Source of the DNA: Dokdonella immobilis
Lineage (GTDB): Bacteria; Pseudomonadota; Gammaproteobacteria; Xanthomonadales; Rhodanobacteraceae
DNA length: 64,000 nucleotides
NCBI RefSeq assembly: GCF_900115085.1
Contig: NZ_FOVF01000013.1
Location: 1 to 64,000, forward strand
Reading direction: 5' to 3'
Part shown: positions 55,803 through 62,832 of the stretch, in pieces
Numbering within the stretch: the first letter of the stretch is position 1
Layout: each line of letters begins with the position of its first letter
Translations under genes and position numbers: made by a program
The notes under the pieces: generated by a model
Databases searched by the model: none
Told to the model about the DNA's origin: nothing
Seen by the model: only the letters and a program-made list of their open reading frames with translations

Positions 55803-56363
55803 ATGACCTCGATCGTCCTCACCGAATTTGCCAGAACCCGGTTGTTTCCTCGCGTGGCTCGGGCCAACACGATCCAGGACTGCACCGCGCAAGCCTTCGA
55901 GCGCCGTCTCAACGAGGAGCCCCCGCTCAAGGTGCTTGAGGGCTATGCCCCGTTCTGCGCCTTGCATGTCCATCGCAACTGGACATCGACCCGCTGCATC
56001 GTGCTCCCGATCACCGGCGAGAATCGTCATCGGCTGCGATCGGCCTACGAAGCGCGCAGCACGGATGAACTGCCGGTGCTGGTGCGCTGGTTCGAGGGCG
56101 TCCAGGCGCCCGTGGCCGATTTCCTGATACCGATTCTGTACAGCCGTGAACAACTGGCGAAGGAGGGTTCGCCGATCACGGCCGAATGGGGCGTAGTCGG
56201 CTGCCTGTACACCGCCGAGCCCGAGGAAATTCCGATGGCGCCGATCACGATGATGCGCAATGCCCTCGGCGTCGATCAAGGCGGCTCGGGCGTGCCGCTC
56301 GATCGCGCGGCCTATCTGGCCAGCGTGGCGTTCTGGGAAGCGCACGCAAACTGGCGTGGCTGA
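55803..56363 (+). CDS. DUF3228 family protein
   Basis: 186 residues matching DUF3228 over its length (EFARTRLFPRVARANTIQDC, LEGYAPFCALHVHRNWTSTRC, IPILYSREQLAKEGSPI, GVVGCLYTAEPEEIPMAPI, TMMRNALGVDQGGSGVPLDR). Function is unknown. The ATG at 55803 begins MTSIVLTEFARTRLF as in relatives. It is the last chromosomal gene before the island and lies beside the tRNA remnant. Confidence 0.93.
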   Translation: MTSIVLTEFARTRLFPRVARANTIQDCTAQAFERRLNEEPPLKVLEGYAPFCALHVHRNWTSTRCIVLPITGENRHRLRSAYEARSTDELPVLVRWFEGVQAPVADFLIPILYSREQLAKEGSPITAEWGVVGCLYTAEPEEIPMAPITMMRNALGVDQGGSGVPLDRAAYLASVAFWEAHANWRG

Positions 56364-56430
56364 CAGCATGGCAGTGGCGACAGACCTGCCACTTGACCAG
56401 GGTCGCCCCGATTCGGGACGAGGGAACCAG

Positions 56431-56475
56431 TGGCGGCCCCGATACGATTCGAACGTACGACCTTCCCCTTAGGAG
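56431..56475 (-). other. Attachment site: 3' part of a tRNA-Arg(CCU) gene
   Basis: Read on the minus strand, this is the last 45 bases of a tRNA. It has the anticodon loop CTCCTAA (anticodon CCT), a five-base variable region, a T arm with GTACG-TTCGAAT-CGTAT, the acceptor strand CGGGGCC and a terminal GCCA. The 5' half is missing: beyond position 56475 the anticodon stem no longer pairs. This is the usual footprint of an element inserted in a tRNA gene, and the tyrosine integrase starts 93 bases away. The 3' end points toward the chromosome, so an intact tRNA-Arg(CCU) is predicted at the far end of the element, outside the window. Confidence 0.8.
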
Positions 56476-56567
56476 CAGGAAGGAATTCAGCATTATATTG
56501 ATTTAGTTGCTGCACGTGGGAAAAAGCGGGGAAAATAGGCCCGACTCCCTGGCTAACCGGTGCATCG

Positions 56568-57704
56568 ATGACGAAGCGCACGAGTTCCCTGAAAGCAGCC
56601 GGTGTCTATGACCGGGGCAAGGCGTGGCAGGTGAAGATTTCCCGGGCAGATTCGAGGGGCCTGCTCCATCGCATCAATCGCTCTTTCCCCTACGACGCCT
56701 TGGCGCCAGCCTCCCATCCCTACAGTCGAACCTCCCGCTTCCACGAGGCCGCGGCGTTTGCGGCTTCCGAGCGGAATGCGCTGCGTATCGAGAGGCGTTC
56801 ATTGCCCGAGACGAAAGCCGCCCAGACGCTCGGCGTATGGCTCGACCGGTACGAGCGCGAGGAAACACCCAAAAAGAAGAGCGCGAACCGGGAGCGCAGC
56901 ACGCTCTCACAGATTCGGGTCCTCTTTCCCCACTTGCTGAAGCGCCAGGTTGCTGATTTGAGACCTTCCGACTTCGTGGGCCATGAGCCGCACAGTGTCG
57001 AAGGCATCATGCGCAAGGTCTATGCACCCGCGACTATTCGGCGCTATCTGACGACGTTGAGCCACGTCTACACGGTCGCCCGCAGTCGGTGGAATTACGA
57101 GGGCGACCATCCGCTGCGCGGCGTTGAGAAGCCGTCAGCCCACGATGAGCGCACTCGAATCATCAGTGACGAGGAATGGAAGCGAATCGAGGAGGGTTGG
57201 GGAGAAACGAGTCCGGCGGTCGTTGCCGCTATTCGTTGGCTACGCTGGACTGCCGCGCGGCGAGGGGAGGCGGTCGCGTTGTCCTGGTCGGACATCGATT
57301 GGACCTCGGCACCGCCCACTGCGCACCTTCAGAACACCAAGGCAAAGCATGGGACTCCTGCGCAGAGCCGACACATTCCATTGGTCCCTGAGGCAGTCGC
57401 GGCACTGGAGCCACTAAAGAGCGGAAACTGGCCGACATCCGGGAGGGTGTTTGATGGCATCAAGGCCGACTCGATTACCCGGGCTTGGGCCAGGGTCTGT
57501 GTACGGGCGGAGGTGGTTGATGCGCGGATTCACGATCTCAGGCATACCCGCATTACTGAGATGGCGCCTTTCCTTCCTCTTCAAGTTCTAGCGCGTCTGA
57601 CGGGGCATCGAGAGCCGGCGACTCTGATGAGGTACTACAACCCATCGGGGAAAGATGCCGCTGCGGCGGGGAGGGCATTAGTGCCACGCGCAGCATTAAT
57701 TTAG
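56568..57704 (+). CDS. Tyrosine recombinase (integrase)
   Basis: 378 residues. The catalytic domain carries Arg231 (ARRGEAVALSW), His322-x-x-Arg325 (HDLRHT), His347 (LTGHREP) and nucleophile Tyr356 (MRYYNP); a Lys in NTKAKHG fills the remaining position. The N-terminal part (residues about 85-180) is the core-binding domain. Proximity to the tRNA-Arg remnant indicates it moves this element. All active-site residues are intact, so the enzyme should be functional. Confidence 0.95.
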   Translation: MTKRTSSLKAAGVYDRGKAWQVKISRADSRGLLHRINRSFPYDALAPASHPYSRTSRFHEAAAFAASERNALRIERRSLPETKAAQTLGVWLDRYEREETPKKKSANRERSTLSQIRVLFPHLLKRQVADLRPSDFVGHEPHSVEGIMRKVYAPATIRRYLTTLSHVYTVARSRWNYEGDHPLRGVEKPSAHDERTRIISDEEWKRIEEGWGETSPAVVAAIRWLRWTAARRGEAVALSWSDIDWTSAPPTAHLQNTKAKHGTPAQSRHIPLVPEAVAALEPLKSGNWPTSGRVFDGIKADSITRAWARVCVRAEVVDARIHDLRHTRITEMAPFLPLQVLARLTGHREPATLMRYYNPSGKDAAAAGRALVPRAALI

Positions 57705-57920
57705 GCGAAAAAATTGTTGAACTGCTGGTTGGGGGTCGTGGAAGCTAGATATACGCAGCTGAACTGTGTAGTGTGGACACATAACTAATGCACATATCGT
57801 TTTTGCAGCGGCTCTCATATGGTCGACGAGTTGGATTACTTTAGGTAAGATCCGATTCGCGCTTGAACTGCAATAGATATATATATCCAAAAACGTTTTC
57901 TTTGGATCAATGGGGGGCGC

Positions 57921-58112
57921 ATGTGGCAAGAAGTGTCGGATGTGGTCAGGCGAGGTTTGCGCGGACTTCTGGAGGCAATTAAAACCATTCTCGCGTTTTT
58001 CCGAGACTATTTGGTTGGTGGTGGCGGGAATGAGGGAAGCTGGCCCCTCGTACTTATCCTGCTCATCGTCATTTGTATAATAGCCCTCGTAGTCAATCAG
58101 TTGGTCAGTTAG
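57921..58112 (+). CDS. Small membrane protein, unknown
   Basis: 63 residues. An amphipathic N-terminal part (WQEVSDVVRRGLRGLLEAIK) is followed by a Gly-rich turn and one strong helix (WPLVLILLIVICIIALVVNQL). No family was recognised. The ATG lies 11 bases after a weak GGGGGG-like site. It ends 23 bases before a convergent 32-residue gene on the other strand. Confidence 0.55.
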   Translation: MWQEVSDVVRRGLRGLLEAIKTILAFFRDYLVGGGGNEGSWPLVLILLIVICIIALVVNQLVS

Positions 58113-58134
58113 TGCGGTGATGCTTCCAGATCAC

Positions 58135-58233
58135 CTATCTTAAGAAACCAAAATAGATGATATGCGCAGTAAGAGTTCCGACTGCGCCGCACAAATAGCA
58201 CGCAACCATATGTTTGTAGTACTCGCTTTTCAT
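58135..58233 (-). CDS. 32-residue membrane peptide, unknown
   Basis: The minus strand encodes a 32-residue peptide starting MKSEYYKHMVACYLCGAVG and ending FGFLR, with one predicted helix and two Cys. AAGGTGA lies 7 bases before the ATG, a good ribosome binding site for such a short frame. It converges with the 63-residue membrane gene. Short hydrophobic peptides of this kind include type I toxins, but no antisense RNA was identified and no such function is claimed. Confidence 0.4.
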   Translation of the reverse strand: MKSEYYKHMVACYLCGAVGTLTAHIIYFGFLR

Positions 58234-58377
58234 TGGTATTTCACCTTGAGATGGGAGTTCATCCAAGCAGATGTTTCGAGATTGTCAAGGGAGGTTAGCT
58301 AGTGAATTGGTGATCGAATATTCATCGCTAGTTAGTTGTGCTATTTGTATCTAGTCCTACCAAGCCTATAGACGAGG

Positions 58378-58830
58378 TTGAGTATTGCAAACCTTGCTGC
58401 TGTGATGAAAGATGAGATCACCCGACTCGCGCGCAGAGCTCTGAAAACAGAGCTGGATACGCTCCGAAAGGCAGGGGCCGGCTACCGTCATGACATTGCC
58501 GCATTGAAACGCCAGGTCGCTGCGCTAGAGAAGGGCCGGGCGGCGTTGGAGAAGCAAGCGCACAAAAACGCACCAACACCCAGCCCGTCAGTGAATGGCG
58601 AGCCTGCGGGGAAGAGTCTACGGTTCTCAGCGAAGCGACTGAGGGCTCAACGGAAAAATATTGGATTCTCAGCCGAGGACTTCGCTCGGCTTTTGGGCGT
58701 GAGCGCTCAGTCCATTTACAACTGGGAAACCGGGAAAGCCATTCCGCGTCGACAGCAACTGGAGGCGATTGCGGCGCTCCGGGGCATTGGTAAGCGCGAG
58801 GCATCTTCGAGGCTGGAAGCCAACGCGTGA
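58378..58830 (+). CDS. Coiled-coil and helix-turn-helix protein
   Basis: 150 residues. Residues about 11-62 form a Lys/Arg/Ala-rich coiled coil (DEITRLARRALKTELDTLRK, HDIAALKRQVAALEKGRAAL). Residues about 82-140 are a Cro/CI-type HTH (RLRAQRKNIGFSAEDFARLL, GVSAQSIYNWETGKAIPR). It is probably a DNA-binding regulator. The likely start is TTG at 58378 (SIANLAAVMKDEI resembles related proteins); ATG at 58405 is the alternative. It stands upstream of the overlapping nuclease-centred genes on the same strand. Confidence 0.8.
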   Translation: MSIANLAAVMKDEITRLARRALKTELDTLRKAGAGYRHDIAALKRQVAALEKGRAALEKQAHKNAPTPSPSVNGEPAGKSLRFSAKRLRAQRKNIGFSAEDFARLLGVSAQSIYNWETGKAIPRRQQLEAIAALRGIGKREASSRLEANA

Positions 58831-58940
58831 GTCTTGATGGACTTTAACGCTTGGGATGTTGGGTCATCTGAATCCTCAGCAGGAGGTCGTACCAACGAAA
58901 TTGATAGTCTGAACCTAGCAGCCGTGATCAGCATTCCGAT

Positions 58941-59225
58941 GTGTTGATCTGCTTGCCCCGGACTTCGTTCGCCGCCGTACTGGACGCTTTCCCGCCGTCG
59001 AGTGTCGCCCTAGCTCTGGCGCACCTGGCGCCTCGCCGAACCCGTCAGCTTGTGCGAGACTCGTCGCATGTCGACCGATTGGCCAGCACGCTGCAAAAAA
59101 AGGGAGAGGCGGCCACCTGCGGCACCGGCTTGAGCCGGATTGAATTCAAACTACACCAACGTGTGCTTGGTCTCGCACATTCGGGTTTTGATCCAGCATG
59201 GCCCTCAGGAATCCATCGCACATGA
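58941..59225 (+). CDS. Small protein overlapping nuclease-like gene
   Basis: 94 residues, no family recognised (SSVALALAHLAPRRTRQLVRD, SSHVDRLASTLQKKGEA). Support for it being real is the ATGA overlap of its stop with the start of the following nuclease-like gene, and ordinary codon use. The start codon is uncertain: GTG at 58941 has no clear ribosome binding site, and TTG alternatives lie just inside. A frame opened by chance cannot be excluded. Confidence 0.4.
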   Translation: MLICLPRTSFAAVLDAFPPSSVALALAHLAPRRTRQLVRDSSHVDRLASTLQKKGEAATCGTGLSRIEFKLHQRVLGLAHSGFDPAWPSGIHRT

Positions 59226-60253
59226 CAACACCACCGCGCCGCGCAGCGGCTATCGAGGATCGTCGGGAAACCGCTCAAGCGGTGGCGAAGCTTAAAGCGG
59301 CGTTTGAGGAAGGCGCGCAACATTTTTCTGCCTACGGAGTCGGGGGTCTTTGGCAACCCTATCTCGGTCTCGGAATCTGCATATTTCAATACCGACAATC
59401 CGCCAAACGTTGGTGGATTGCCTTGGGGCGAAGCCAAGTTCGGTTCAAAGACAACCTCGTGGTCGAGATCAATCCTCCTGTCGGTGGCATTCGCCGAGAT
59501 TTCCAGGGTGTTGTCGCCCTAGTGAAAGGCAAGCAATGGCTATTGCATCGAGGTCGTATGCAACTGCCTGGCAAGCGCATTTCGGAATCGGACTCGCTGT
59601 CGATCAGCAGTCATCCCACTGCGGAGGTGTCGTTCTCGGACAATAGCACCGCAACCTGCTTGGTCGTAGCGTGCTTGGACGAAGAGCCTGCCCTCATCCG
59701 CAATGCCGTCGCGAAGTTTGTGCGCGAGTGCCAGCGCATTCGCGACCACTATAGCTGGGGAGTCGAGGTCGCCAGCGAAGAAGCGGCTGTCGAGCTGGCA
59801 GAAGCCGGCGAAGAAGACGAGGGCAATCCTGAGTCCGAGGGAACCTATGTCACCCCACCGAGAAGCGCCGTAACGGTCAAGCGCCGACACGGCTCAGTGT
59901 GGAAGACACTGAAACTTGCTCTCGCGAAAGGCGGCGTCAATTCCACCAACAAGCGGGTCGGACGATTTGGTCCGGATCTGAGAACCTTGAAGCCGCAGCG
60001 GATTCTTTTCGAGATAAAGACGACCATCTATGCCGCCGCAGTGCAGCAGGCTTTGGGTCAGTTGCTGCTGTACGAGCAGACTCTGGGAGCGCCTCATATC
60101 AAAATCCTGGTGCTTCCACACGGCCTCTCCATAACGATGCGAGAGGCAATCAAGGCGCTCGACATTCTTGTGGTCGAGTATCGGTGGGTCGGCAAGTCAG
60201 CTGTTCTCGATAAGCAGGCGCTCGACAAGGTGCTTGCCGCCCGGGGTCGGTGA
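59222..60253 (+). CDS. PD-(D/E)XK nuclease-like protein
   Basis: 343 residues. The C-terminal part has the restriction-endonuclease-like signature: Asp252 (FGPDLRTL), Glu264-x-Lys266 (ILFEIKTT), and a glutamine-rich helix (AVQQALGQLLLYEQ) as in motif IV. The N-terminal 200 residues are of unknown type, ending with an acidic stretch (ELAEAGEEDEGNPESEG). It probably cuts DNA or binds it; target unknown. It is coupled by ATGA to a small upstream gene and by GTGA to a downstream frame. ATG 59198 is an alternative start without a ribosome binding site. Confidence 0.7.
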   Translation: MTTPPRRAAAIEDRRETAQAVAKLKAAFEEGAQHFSAYGVGGLWQPYLGLGICIFQYRQSAKRWWIALGRSQVRFKDNLVVEINPPVGGIRRDFQGVVALVKGKQWLLHRGRMQLPGKRISESDSLSISSHPTAEVSFSDNSTATCLVVACLDEEPALIRNAVAKFVRECQRIRDHYSWGVEVASEEAAVELAEAGEEDEGNPESEGTYVTPPRSAVTVKRRHGSVWKTLKLALAKGGVNSTNKRVGRFGPDLRTLKPQRILFEIKTTIYAAAVQQALGQLLLYEQTLGAPHIKILVLPHGLSITMREAIKALDILVVEYRWVGKSAVLDKQALDKVLAARGR

Positions 60254-60621
60254 GACTCAGAAGCGCTACGAAGGGCCGCACTGAAAACAGTGATCCGATT
60301 TACGTCGAGTGGGACGTCCTCATGCTGGCATCAGTAGACGATTTGGTAGAATTGCAAGTCGATGTCGAGCCGGCTTGCCAAATCCCAACTTTACCCATCA
60401 GCTCTTCATGCGCCTTTCAGTTGGACCCTAGCTTCACCCGCGCAGCGCGCAACGGCGTTGCCGTGCTCCACGTTGTTTCGCTCCTTCGGATGCGCTCCGC
60501 ATATTCGGGCTTCGCCGTTCCGGTTCCACCGGCGCACTCCAGTGCCGATGGAGCGAAAACCAATGAACCAGGCAACCCGCGACGTACTAGGCCACTACCA
60601 CCTCAGTGGGCCGCAAACTGA
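60250..60621 (+). CDS. Possible small protein coupled to nuclease gene
   Basis: 123 residues if complete. It starts with GTG overlapping the nuclease stop (GTGA). The first 45 residues (DPIYVEWDVLMLASVDDLVE, LQVDVEPA) look protein-like, but from about 60390 on the frame enters GC-rich, repeat-like sequence and overlaps the radC start by 59 bases. It may be a truncated gene or a chance frame. Confidence 0.3.
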   Translation: MRLRSATKGRTENSDPIYVEWDVLMLASVDDLVELQVDVEPACQIPTLPISSSCAFQLDPSFTRAARNGVAVLHVVSLLRMRSAYSGFAVPVPPAHSSADGAKTNEPGNPRRTRPLPPQWAAN

Positions 60622-61051
60622 AGCCGACATCCTTAGCCTCGCCGAAGGCATCCTTCTTCGCCGGCTCGAACGCCTCGGTTGGCTCACAGACCCAAAGGCA
60701 TCCGCAGACTTCCTTCGCGCACGGCTTGGAAATCTTGAGCATGAAGAATTTCACGCAGTCTGGCTCGACAACCGGCATGGGATACTTGGGGTCCAGCACC
60801 TTTTCACAGGAACTGTAGACGGATGCTCCGTCTATCCGCGCGAAGTCTTGCGCCACGCGCTCCGGATTGGCGCGGCAGCGGTGATATTCGCTCACAACCA
60901 TCCGAGCGGTAGCGTCGAGCCCAGTGCGGCAGATCGGGCAATCACAATCCGCTTACGTGACGCGCTGACATTGGTTGATATTCGCGTTCTTGACCACCTT
61001 GTGGTTGGTGCAAGTGGCACCACGAGCCTGGCGCAGCGAGGATGGATCTGA
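60563..61051 (+). CDS. radC: RadC-family JAB-domain protein
   Basis: 162 residues. The JAMM metal motif is complete: a Glu in EHEEFHAVWLD (about 61-62), His111-x-His113-P-S-G and Asp124 (AHNHPSGSVEPSAADRAI). RadC homologues of this short form are common on islands and plasmids, with disputed roles in repair or antirestriction. The start at 60563 (MNQATRDVLG) follows GAGCG; ATG 60548 is an alternative. It ends with a hairpin region before the convergent mobilisation genes. Confidence 0.92.
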   Translation: MNQATRDVLGHYHLSGPQTEADILSLAEGILLRRLERLGWLTDPKASADFLRARLGNLEHEEFHAVWLDNRHGILGVQHLFTGTVDGCSVYPREVLRHALRIGAAAVIFAHNHPSGSVEPSAADRAITIRLRDALTLVDIRVLDHLVVGASGTTSLAQRGWI

Positions 61052-61119
61052 GTTCAATCGCACAGATGCCTCTGGCGGCCATTCAGCCAAGGGCATCTAT
61101 CAAACATCGGGCGGGCCGG

Positions 61120-61440
61120 CTACGAGCCGGCTTCGCCTCTCTCATGCTCTTGGCCACGCTTTCGTACGGTCATGCGAAGCGTCGGTGACTCGATATAGCG
61201 CACGCGCGCGTCCATCAATAGACCAATCAGGTCGGATTTTTCAATGTCCCCGAGTCCGGTCGATATCACCGTGTCTCCGAGCATCAGTCGTCGCCGCAGG
61301 AGATTGCGTCGATTCTTGTTCTTTTCGCGAGCGGAGACTCGCATCTCATGAAGCAGCTTTCGGGCGCGAAGCTGAGCGACTCGTTGGGTCGCTCGCACAA
61401 GTTGAGCCTCGACACCTTTCCCATCCCTGCCGGCAGTCAA
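61120..61440 (-). CDS. TraD-like small mobilisation protein
   Basis: 106 residues from a TTG that overlaps the upstream stop (TTGA). A Lys/Arg-rich N-terminal half and the segment RRNLLRRRLMLGDTVISTG, followed by DLIGLLMDARVRY, resemble the small conjugal-transfer TraD proteins of Ti-type plasmids, which accompany relaxases. No relaxase is visible in this window. An in-frame ATG (residue 33) is a possible start for a shorter product. Confidence 0.55.
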   Translation of the reverse strand: MTAGRDGKGVEAQLVRATQRVAQLRARKLLHEMRVSAREKNKNRRNLLRRRLMLGDTVISTGLGDIEKSDLIGLLMDARVRYIESPTLRMTVRKRGQEHERGEAGS

Positions 61441-61751
61441 TGAAATGCTCCCGGCCGACGTGGCCCACGAGTCAGAGGCACGAACAGGCTCGAATGCCTC
61501 AAACGTTGCCGTCGAGCATCATCCAAGACGAGGCGAGGCGGTCGAAGTGACATGCGTTGTCGACCCGATGATCTTTTGCTGCCTTTGATGAGGTCCGCGC
61601 CTTTGATGAGGAGGTCGCTCAATCGTGCGAACTCAACCTCAGTTGGTTCGGGTGGGCACTGGATGAAGTGCGCGTCATGAAGGCCAGGAAGGAAAACAAT
61701 GATCTGGTTGAGGTCGATGAGTAGAGAGCGGAGTTCTTTTGATAGATGCAT
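61437..61751 (-). CDS. Unknown protein upstream of TraD-like gene
   Basis: 104 residues, hydrophilic, with LSKELRSLLIDLNQIIVFLP at the start and a basic C-terminus (RRQRLRHSSLFVPLTRGPRR). No family was recognised. GAGGCC precedes the ATG by 7 bases and its stop overlaps the TraD-like gene. It may be a relaxosome accessory protein by position only. Confidence 0.5.
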   Translation of the reverse strand: MHLSKELRSLLIDLNQIIVFLPGLHDAHFIQCPPEPTEVEFARLSDLLIKGADLIKGSKRSSGRQRMSLRPPRLVLDDARRQRLRHSSLFVPLTRGPRRPGAFH

Positions 61752-62403
61752 GAGAGGCCTCGTTGATGTGGATGCAGCGTTCACATCAGAAGTATCATTT
61801 CGAGGCAACAGCACAAGTCCCCAACTACGCGCAACTCTCATCGCACGAAGTGAGCATCCCAATAGATTCGATCGCCCGATAGTGGGTACTTGGCTATGAA
61901 GTTCGCCCTATGGATTCTGAGCCAGATCAGCTCAGCGCTCAATGATGAAATGAGGAGGAAACTCGAAGATTTCCAATGATCGTGAATCGCGCTGATTCAA
62001 GGCGAATGGCGTGACAATCGAGCAGGGCAATAGCGCACTTACGCAAACTACGTTTGCCCGGTACCCTGCGGGCCTCGGAGAGCGCCGGAACTTCGCCCCG
62101 GACCCCGCCACACTACGGCGCAAGGCAAGGTAAACAGCGACAGCCTACTGCTTCTGTTGCTTCTCCATTCAAGCGCGCACGTTCAAAATACAAAGTGACA
62201 CTGGGTCACAACGAACCACTTGGACAGTCTCGCAGGCTCCATAGTTCGCAATTTGAGACAGTGAGCCAATGGGCGCGCAATGGCGATCTGGGCTCTCGAT
62301 GGATCATAGTCGGCGGTCGATCAGGGGTAGAATTATCGCTCAATGAGCCTATGCAAACGACGCGCCGCGTCCATCGACGCCACTCAACGTCAGGAGATGT
62401 TCT
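61752..62403. other. 650-base gap without a supported gene
   Basis: Mostly AT-richer DNA. One 27-codon frame at 61896-61979 (plus, MKFALWILSQISSALNDEM, ending KLEDFQ) has ordinary codon use but only a weak ribosome binding site, and might be a tiny gene or a tail of a decayed one. A GC-rich block near 62050-62110 resembles the repeat debris elsewhere. The AGGAG for the next gene lies at the right edge. Confidence 0.5.
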
Positions 62404-62832
62404 ATGTACGACCCCCAGATACATTCGGTTCAAGTGCCCGCAGACATCGTCTTTGAGCAACTTCTAGTGAAGTTATCGTCGGATCTACGTTCAATCATAG
62501 AGCGAGCATCCGCTAACGGATCGCAATCCCTTCAAGGTCCCGCAATCTCAGAAATGAGAGATGTGACCGTGAAATGCCTAGATGACACTGTTCGCCAAGT
62601 CAGTTCGCTCTATGAACGGGGATTCGCGCGTTTCCCGGTCGGGCCAGGTCTTGACACAAGAAGGATGCTCCAGACCGACGGGCTAGATCATCTCACCGGT
62701 CAGATTGACACCATTGCACAAACCTACGTTGAGTTCGTTGCGCAGCACGGTAGGGCGACGGTGAATGTTGGAAGTGAGGTGGAAAGCAGCAAGAACCGCC
62801 TTAGATTGATGATCGAGAAGATTGCTGGCTAG
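62404..62832 (+). CDS. Unknown cytoplasmic protein
   Basis: 142 residues, mostly helical and mildly acidic (ADIVFEQLLVKLSSDLRSII, EMRDVTVKCLDDTVRQVSSL). No membrane segment and no recognised family. AGGAG lies 7 bases before the ATG, supporting a real gene. Codon use is more AT-rich than the chromosomal genes, as for other genes of the element. Confidence 0.65.
   Translation: MYDPQIHSVQVPADIVFEQLLVKLSSDLRSIIERASANGSQSLQGPAISEMRDVTVKCLDDTVRQVSSLYERGFARFPVGPGLDTRRMLQTDGLDHLTGQIDTIAQTYVEFVAQHGRATVNVGSEVESSKNRLRLMIEKIAG

Follow-up and report, generated by a model that had tools for sequence, protein, structure and literature searches.

A candidate stand-alone defense nuclease with an apparently undescribed N-terminal domain on an integrase-bearing island of Dokdonella immobilis

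Organization of the locus

The window, a 64,000-nucleotide stretch of the Dokdonella immobilis genome, includes an island region that begins with a tyrosine integrase gene (Table 1). The match to PF00589 sustains the initial annotation of an integrase-bearing mobile element. The GC content is 0.49–0.59 in the island region versus 0.61–0.65 in the flank, and a tRNA-like fragment adjoins the integrase gene. Judged from its sequence, this fragment (56431–56462) is a possible left attachment site; ARAGORN and Rfam call no tRNA there, and within 42 kb no direct repeat was found that would define the island's right end. The island continues past the window (contig positions 67676–98211, loci L053 and L054), where it carries MobA/MobL, an IS21 pair, a STAND ATPase, a large UvrD helicase, a JAB protein and a SngC (Shango) helicase. 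The same continuation contains an unannotated 1431-aa protein at contig positions 83427–87719.

Table 1. Features of the island region in the window, and an additional N-terminal domain of some relatives of the nuclease
Feature	Position	Strand	Remarks
3’ tRNA-like fragment (T arm/acceptor end)	56431–56462	-	Judged from sequence; a single exact copy in the window
Tyrosine integrase	56568–57704	+	PF00589, E 6e-12
Coiled-coil and XRE/HTH_3 regulator	58378–58830	+	PF01381, E 1e-10; neighbor, outside the nuclease system
94-aa frame	58941–59225	+	Unlikely to be a gene; lies upstream of the nuclease; no homologue; codon score -0.06
Nuclease gene	59222–60253	+	343 aa; ATG at 59222; AGGA ~12 nt upstream
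N-terminal domain	59222–59755	+	Residues 1–178; alpha-beta, mostly beta; putative DNA/modification sensor
C-terminal PD-(D/E)XK nuclease domain	59852–60250	+	Residues 211–343; VIA-align fold matches
Catalytic codons	59975–60019	+	Asp252 59975–59977; Glu264 60011–60013; Lys266 60017–60019
123-aa frame	60250–60621	+	Unlikely to be a gene; covers the spacer before radC and runs into the radC start; no homologue; codon score -0.05
RadC-like JAB protein	60563–61051	+	PF04002, E 8e-41; frequent passenger of islands, with no conserved link to the nuclease
Extra N-terminal domain of relatives	L015 7506–7988; L007 5461–5940; L008 5464–5950		Undescribed

The initial annotation described a module at 58378–60621 in which an HTH protein precedes three overlapping genes. 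An ORF check places all four frames, and both four-base overlaps, exactly as annotated: the 94-aa frame meets the nuclease frame at ATGA, and the nuclease frame meets the 123-aa frame at GTGA. Homology identifies the HTH, 343-aa and RadC frames as real genes. The status of the two outer frames as genes is not upheld by several searches. First, neither matches anything in 72,556 plasmids (E 0.1), and neither has a counterpart within 6–8 kb of 17 nuclease relatives. Second, profile searches give no significant family match for either. Third, their codon scores are low compared with those of the nuclease (0.095) and RadC (0.024), and lie at the bottom of the range of 51 training genes (mean 0.185, minimum -0.063); they exceed the shadow-frame mean (-0.206, 95th percentile 0.078), so that codon scores alone are not decisive for gene status. 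In addition, the beginning of radC lies within the 123-aa frame, in a different reading frame. Because the outer frames do not hold up as genes, the overlaps with them carry no weight.

The HTH gene is likewise absent beside the 17 nuclease relatives. Its product has matches in 19 of 80 relatives (its own genome included), about ten of them strong (E<=1e-20). A paralogue lies on another contig of the genome, and 27 plasmids carry a match. The seven loci of HTH homologues that were checked contain no nuclease and neither outer frame, and radC is present at one of them. The HTH protein is a widespread island and plasmid regulator, and a neighbor rather than a partner of the nuclease. The four-gene module was therefore rejected, the outer frames having no homologue beside any nuclease gene in the flanks examined and the HTH homologues occurring without the nuclease; what had been taken for a module reduces to one gene, 59222–60253. 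RadC was rejected as a partner as well, as none lies beside the 17 relatives. The spacer at 60254–60562 includes a 108-bp stretch that recurs before another radC gene (G022, 73%) along with short weak matches, on which basis a conserved RNA or other element was rejected; Rfam has no match from 56200 to 62500.

These observations bear on the suggestion that the locus is a defense, toxin-antitoxin or restriction-like system. A role in defense is plausible, but a toxin-antitoxin arrangement is not supported, as no partner is conserved beside the 17 relatives. An arrangement in which the HTH protein, partnered by the outer frames, represses or neutralizes the nuclease would suit adjacent genes on one strand, yet the absence of all three frames near the 17 relatives and the independent occurrence of HTH homologues make it extremely improbable.

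A PD-(D/E)XK nuclease with a conserved N-terminal domain

The product of 59222–60253 belongs to the PD-(D/E)XK nuclease superfamily. An alternative in-frame ATG at 59198 would extend it to 351 aa. In a full-length model built from 10 sequences (mean pLDDT 80), the linker at about residues 180–220 is of low confidence, and residues 211–343 match PD-(D/E)XK enzymes in VIA-align: Cdn1 (Z 11.3, rmsd 2.3 over 114), VC1899 (Z 11.2), Can2 (Z 10.8), NucS (Z 10.3) and PspGI (Z 9.8). The fold search thus recovers the core fold around residues 252–266, where the initial annotation had placed it. Asp252, Glu264 and Lys266 are invariant in all 27 aligned family members, which together with these Z scores of 9.8–11.3 confirms the assignment made from the three residues. 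Gln280 (60059–60061), within a GQLxx(Y/H) motif, is also invariant in 27 of 27, as are Gly279 and Leu281, and Tyr284 is either Tyr or His. The window nuclease has no match among Pfam, NCBIfam, PADLOC 2.0 or PHROGs models, and PADLOC has none for two of its relatives (L050 and L079).

The preceding ~178 residues form a conserved domain with the motif VE(I/V)NPP...QG-V-A...W-LH-GR. Modeled alone with AlphaFold2 (residues 1–179), the domain is predicted confidently (pLDDT 86.7, pTM 0.86) as a helix, a run of beta strands and two further helices. This model has no match in the PDB (best Foldseek E 0.14, best VIA-align Z 4.0); PURA, p32, frataxin/CyaY and SigE were rejected as relatives because the nearest structural rows are too weak. 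Neither Foldseek nor VIA-align gives a CARF-like or PUA-type match in the PDB for the isolated domain; diverged EVE domains can escape such a comparison, and the lack of a CARF match is not decisive. By sequence, the domain profile finds just chance-level transthyretin matches in the PDB, and Pfam, NCBIfam and PADLOC have no match for the domain. The N-terminus had been called unfamiliar, and it proves to be so. The predicted structure appears to have no known counterpart, which does not in itself prove a new fold. The domain also appears to be undescribed, in that searches of papers, which cover the literature incompletely, found nothing on it.

Distribution of the nuclease family

The nuclease is patchily distributed. 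A single-sequence search of 60 relatives and 369 class-sampled genomes found it in its own genome only (1 of the 60), and it occurs in 5 of 299 genomes of the order. Full-length homologues with 30–39% identity are present on plasmids and chromosomes of Alpha- and Gammaproteobacteria. A tblastn and degenerate-pattern scan of GTDB contigs identified homologues in Microvirga, Roseomonas, Methylobacterium, Dokdonella, Jiella, Rhizobium and others. Further homologues, from plasmid searches, are in Bosea, Agrobacterium, Polymorphobacter, Polaromonas, Azospirillum and Hymenobacter. Profile searches extend the family to more distant homologues in the order of the host and other Proteobacteria, and distant homologues also occur in Betaproteobacteria and Bacteroidota. 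Two of six phylum matches (L044 and L045) were discarded as antisense to riboflavin synthase genes, and a weak match in G439 was not accepted as a relative. No relative was found in 50,697 phage records with either the window or the L034 protein as query; one relative (L078) lies on an IMG/VR contig with phage head genes. Ahead of the Hymenobacter (Bacteroidota) relative (L082, 5565–6990) lie, in tight succession, a 139-aa gene and one of very large size, which form an operon with it.

Frameshifts or truncation disrupt four relatives (L004 6727–6737, L015 8660–8689, L018 7890–8195 and L006 5146–6594), two of them near the active site; the cause is either the loss of costly genes or errors in sequencing. 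Such copies raise the question of whether the window gene is itself a decaying or non-functional passenger of the mobile element. This is very unlikely, as the window copy is intact and retains all catalytic residues and a coding signature.

Domain shuffling among relatives

The domain architectures of the relatives provide evidence that the N-terminal domain is, computationally, a separate, conserved and swappable unit. First, a relative from the same order (L036, 7224–8201) encodes, in a single 326-aa frame, the N-terminal domain joined to an HNH nuclease rather than a PD-(D/E)XK domain. The homology of its N-terminal domain is indicated by a genome profile match (E 1.1e-7) and by hhalign, with E 2.9e-10 alone and 1.8e-14 for the group. 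Its HNH domain is closest to that of EcoKMcrA (6ghc, E 2e-21), with further matches to ScoMcrA and TagI, and its best PADLOC model is ‘Type IV methyl-directed restriction enzyme’. Second, a NEco domain is placed ahead of the N-terminal domain in three relatives (L033, L079 and L080), matching 6r64/6t21/6t22 with E 0.004 alone and 6e-7 as a three-sequence profile. NEco is the reader of modified cytosine (5mC) in EcoKMcrA (PMC7145662). The window protein itself has neither NEco nor HNH by sequence search. Third, a different N-terminal domain precedes the middle domain in L004, L015 and L016 (in a separate frame in L016), and the same domain is fused directly to the nuclease, with no middle domain, in L007 and L008. 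This extra domain follows the pattern RLxP...IAIGWS...W-F...GD-V-VP and has no Pfam match in L004, L007, L008 or L015; its sequence perhaps resembles PUA/EVE. Such shuffling of readers and cutters is typical of known modification-dependent enzymes (PMC7641849, PMC7461809, PMC7145662).

The L036 gene lies ~165 bp downstream of an integrase. A small charged protein encoded in the window (61120–61440, minus strand) is 41% identical (E 7e-16) to one at L036 10088–10579, a few kb downstream of the nuclease gene in both cases, and is probably shared island backbone.

Genomic neighborhoods

Several relatives lie beside genes of known defense systems. GajB (Gabija) is 211 bp upstream in L004, a Mza operon (Z1-MzaD-AIPR) ends 44 bp upstream in L079, MzaD/MzaE are adjacent in L033, and a type I R-M operon with DUF6602 is 13 bp away in L050. 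The L003 relative has vsr and HNH nuclease genes directly beside it or no more than a few hundred bases away, and a dcm gene is also near. At somewhat greater distance, some 2–3 kb at most, are ThsB (Thoeris) with a DRT-VI reverse transcriptase in L002 and AbiE in L034. About half of the loci, such as L009, L011 and L014, have ordinary neighbors. Enrichment of defense genes around the family is an impression. In L079 (1341–8635) and L033 (6719–11329), the protein composed of NEco, the N-terminal domain and PD-(D/E)XK directly follows the MzaD/MzaE genes, and the NEco-bearing nuclease is possibly an unrecognized extra component of some Mza operons.

A Pycsar pair (cyclase/TIR) adjoins the relative in L006. 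This pair, and the ligand-activated nucleases Can2, Card1 and NucC, which with Cdn1 and VC1899 are at the head of the structural matches for the catalytic domain, would be compatible with an N-terminal domain that responds to a small molecule, a nucleotide second messenger or a phage protein by switching on the nuclease in abortive infection. The N-terminal domain, however, is mostly beta and lacks a CARF-like match (which is not exclusive), most members have no adjacent cyclase, and fusion to a McrA-type HNH and to NEco would be unusual for such a sensor. A sensor of this type is rather improbable.

A motif scan for methyltransferases covered 19 loci and recovered both known ones (L003 and L050). 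It detected none within ~8 kb of the window nuclease and one further candidate, 7 kb away in L012; an MTase_II methyltransferase also lies near the relative on the L078 contig. The methyltransferases near L003, L050 and L078 suggest that some relatives could be ordinary restriction partners. For the window gene, the lack of a nearby methyltransferase favors an enzyme that ignores host DNA over one from which the host is protected.

The same data bear on whether the N-terminal domain instead reads unmodified sequence or DNA structure, as in a type II-like or mismatch/damage nuclease whose host lacks the site or is protected by another gene. The best fold matches include NucS/EndoMS and PspGI, and vsr, dcm, a type I methylase or MTase_II is near some members. 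Most members, the window gene included, have no methyltransferase nearby, however; their sporadic occurrence speaks against housekeeping repair; and pairing with a McrA-type HNH and with NEco suggests modified DNA as the target. Recognition of unmodified DNA is given a small share of the probability.

Proposed function and significance

It is likely that 59222–60253 encodes some form of stand-alone defense nuclease. The more specific reading, a stand-alone modification-dependent (type IV-like) restriction nuclease, is favored with somewhat better than even confidence. In such an enzyme, the C-terminal PD-(D/E)XK domain would cut nucleic acid, most likely double-stranded DNA, and the N-terminal domain would serve for recognition and so guide or permit cleavage. 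This domain would most likely bind modified or otherwise foreign DNA, and the outcome would be restriction of phage or plasmid DNA. DNA binding by the N-terminal domain, modification dependence and antiphage action are inferred from the architecture and its relatives.

Bacteria use type IV enzymes to restrict phages whose DNA is disguised by modified bases. To our knowledge, few reader domains are known, SRA, EVE, NEco, SBD and winged helix among them. A bolder proposal, to which slightly less than an even chance is assigned, is that the N-terminal domain has a new fold and acts as a general-purpose reader of a modified base or other chemical mark, plugged onto PD-(D/E)XK and HNH nucleases and stacked with known readers such as NEco, and thus defines a new family of stand-alone restriction enzymes. 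If confirmed, such a domain would add one more reader to the list and a candidate tool to detect DNA modifications. It would also account for ‘hypothetical proteins’ scattered over defense islands in Proteobacteria and in one or more members of the Bacteroidota. The NEco fusion suggests a specific guess for the target, namely modified cytosine.

Comparison with known systems

EcoKMcrA (NEco-HNH, type IV; 6ghc, 6r64) has the sensor-plus-nuclease plan proposed for the window protein, and its components recur within the family, the HNH type in L036 and NEco in L033, L079 and L080. The window protein differs in having neither NEco nor HNH; its N-terminal domain is not detectably NEco-like, and its nuclease is PD-(D/E)XK. 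ScoMcrA and TagI (sensor plus HNH; 5zmm, 6ghs) have the McrA-type HNH in common with L036, but use other sensor domains than the N-terminal domain described here, those of ScoMcrA being SBD and SRA (PMC7461809). Can2, Card1 and Cdn1 (CARF plus PD-(D/E)XK) provide the best fold matches to the catalytic domain (Z 8.9–11.3), whereas the window N-terminal domain has no CARF match and no CRISPR locus was noticed.

The EVE-PD(D/E)XK and EVE-HNH enzymes (PMC7641849; VcaM4I, PMC7897488) also join a small sensor to either nuclease, as proposed here, and occur in defense contexts. Pfam gives no EVE/PUA domain for the window protein, a search that a diverged EVE can escape. CMoRE (PMC12923530), a type IV enzyme encoded by one gene, carries its own sensor, as proposed for the window protein, but its nuclease belongs to the GIY-YIG superfamily and its sensor is C-terminal. 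The proposed sensor-plus-nuclease architecture is of a known kind, and it is the putative sensor itself that appears to be undescribed.
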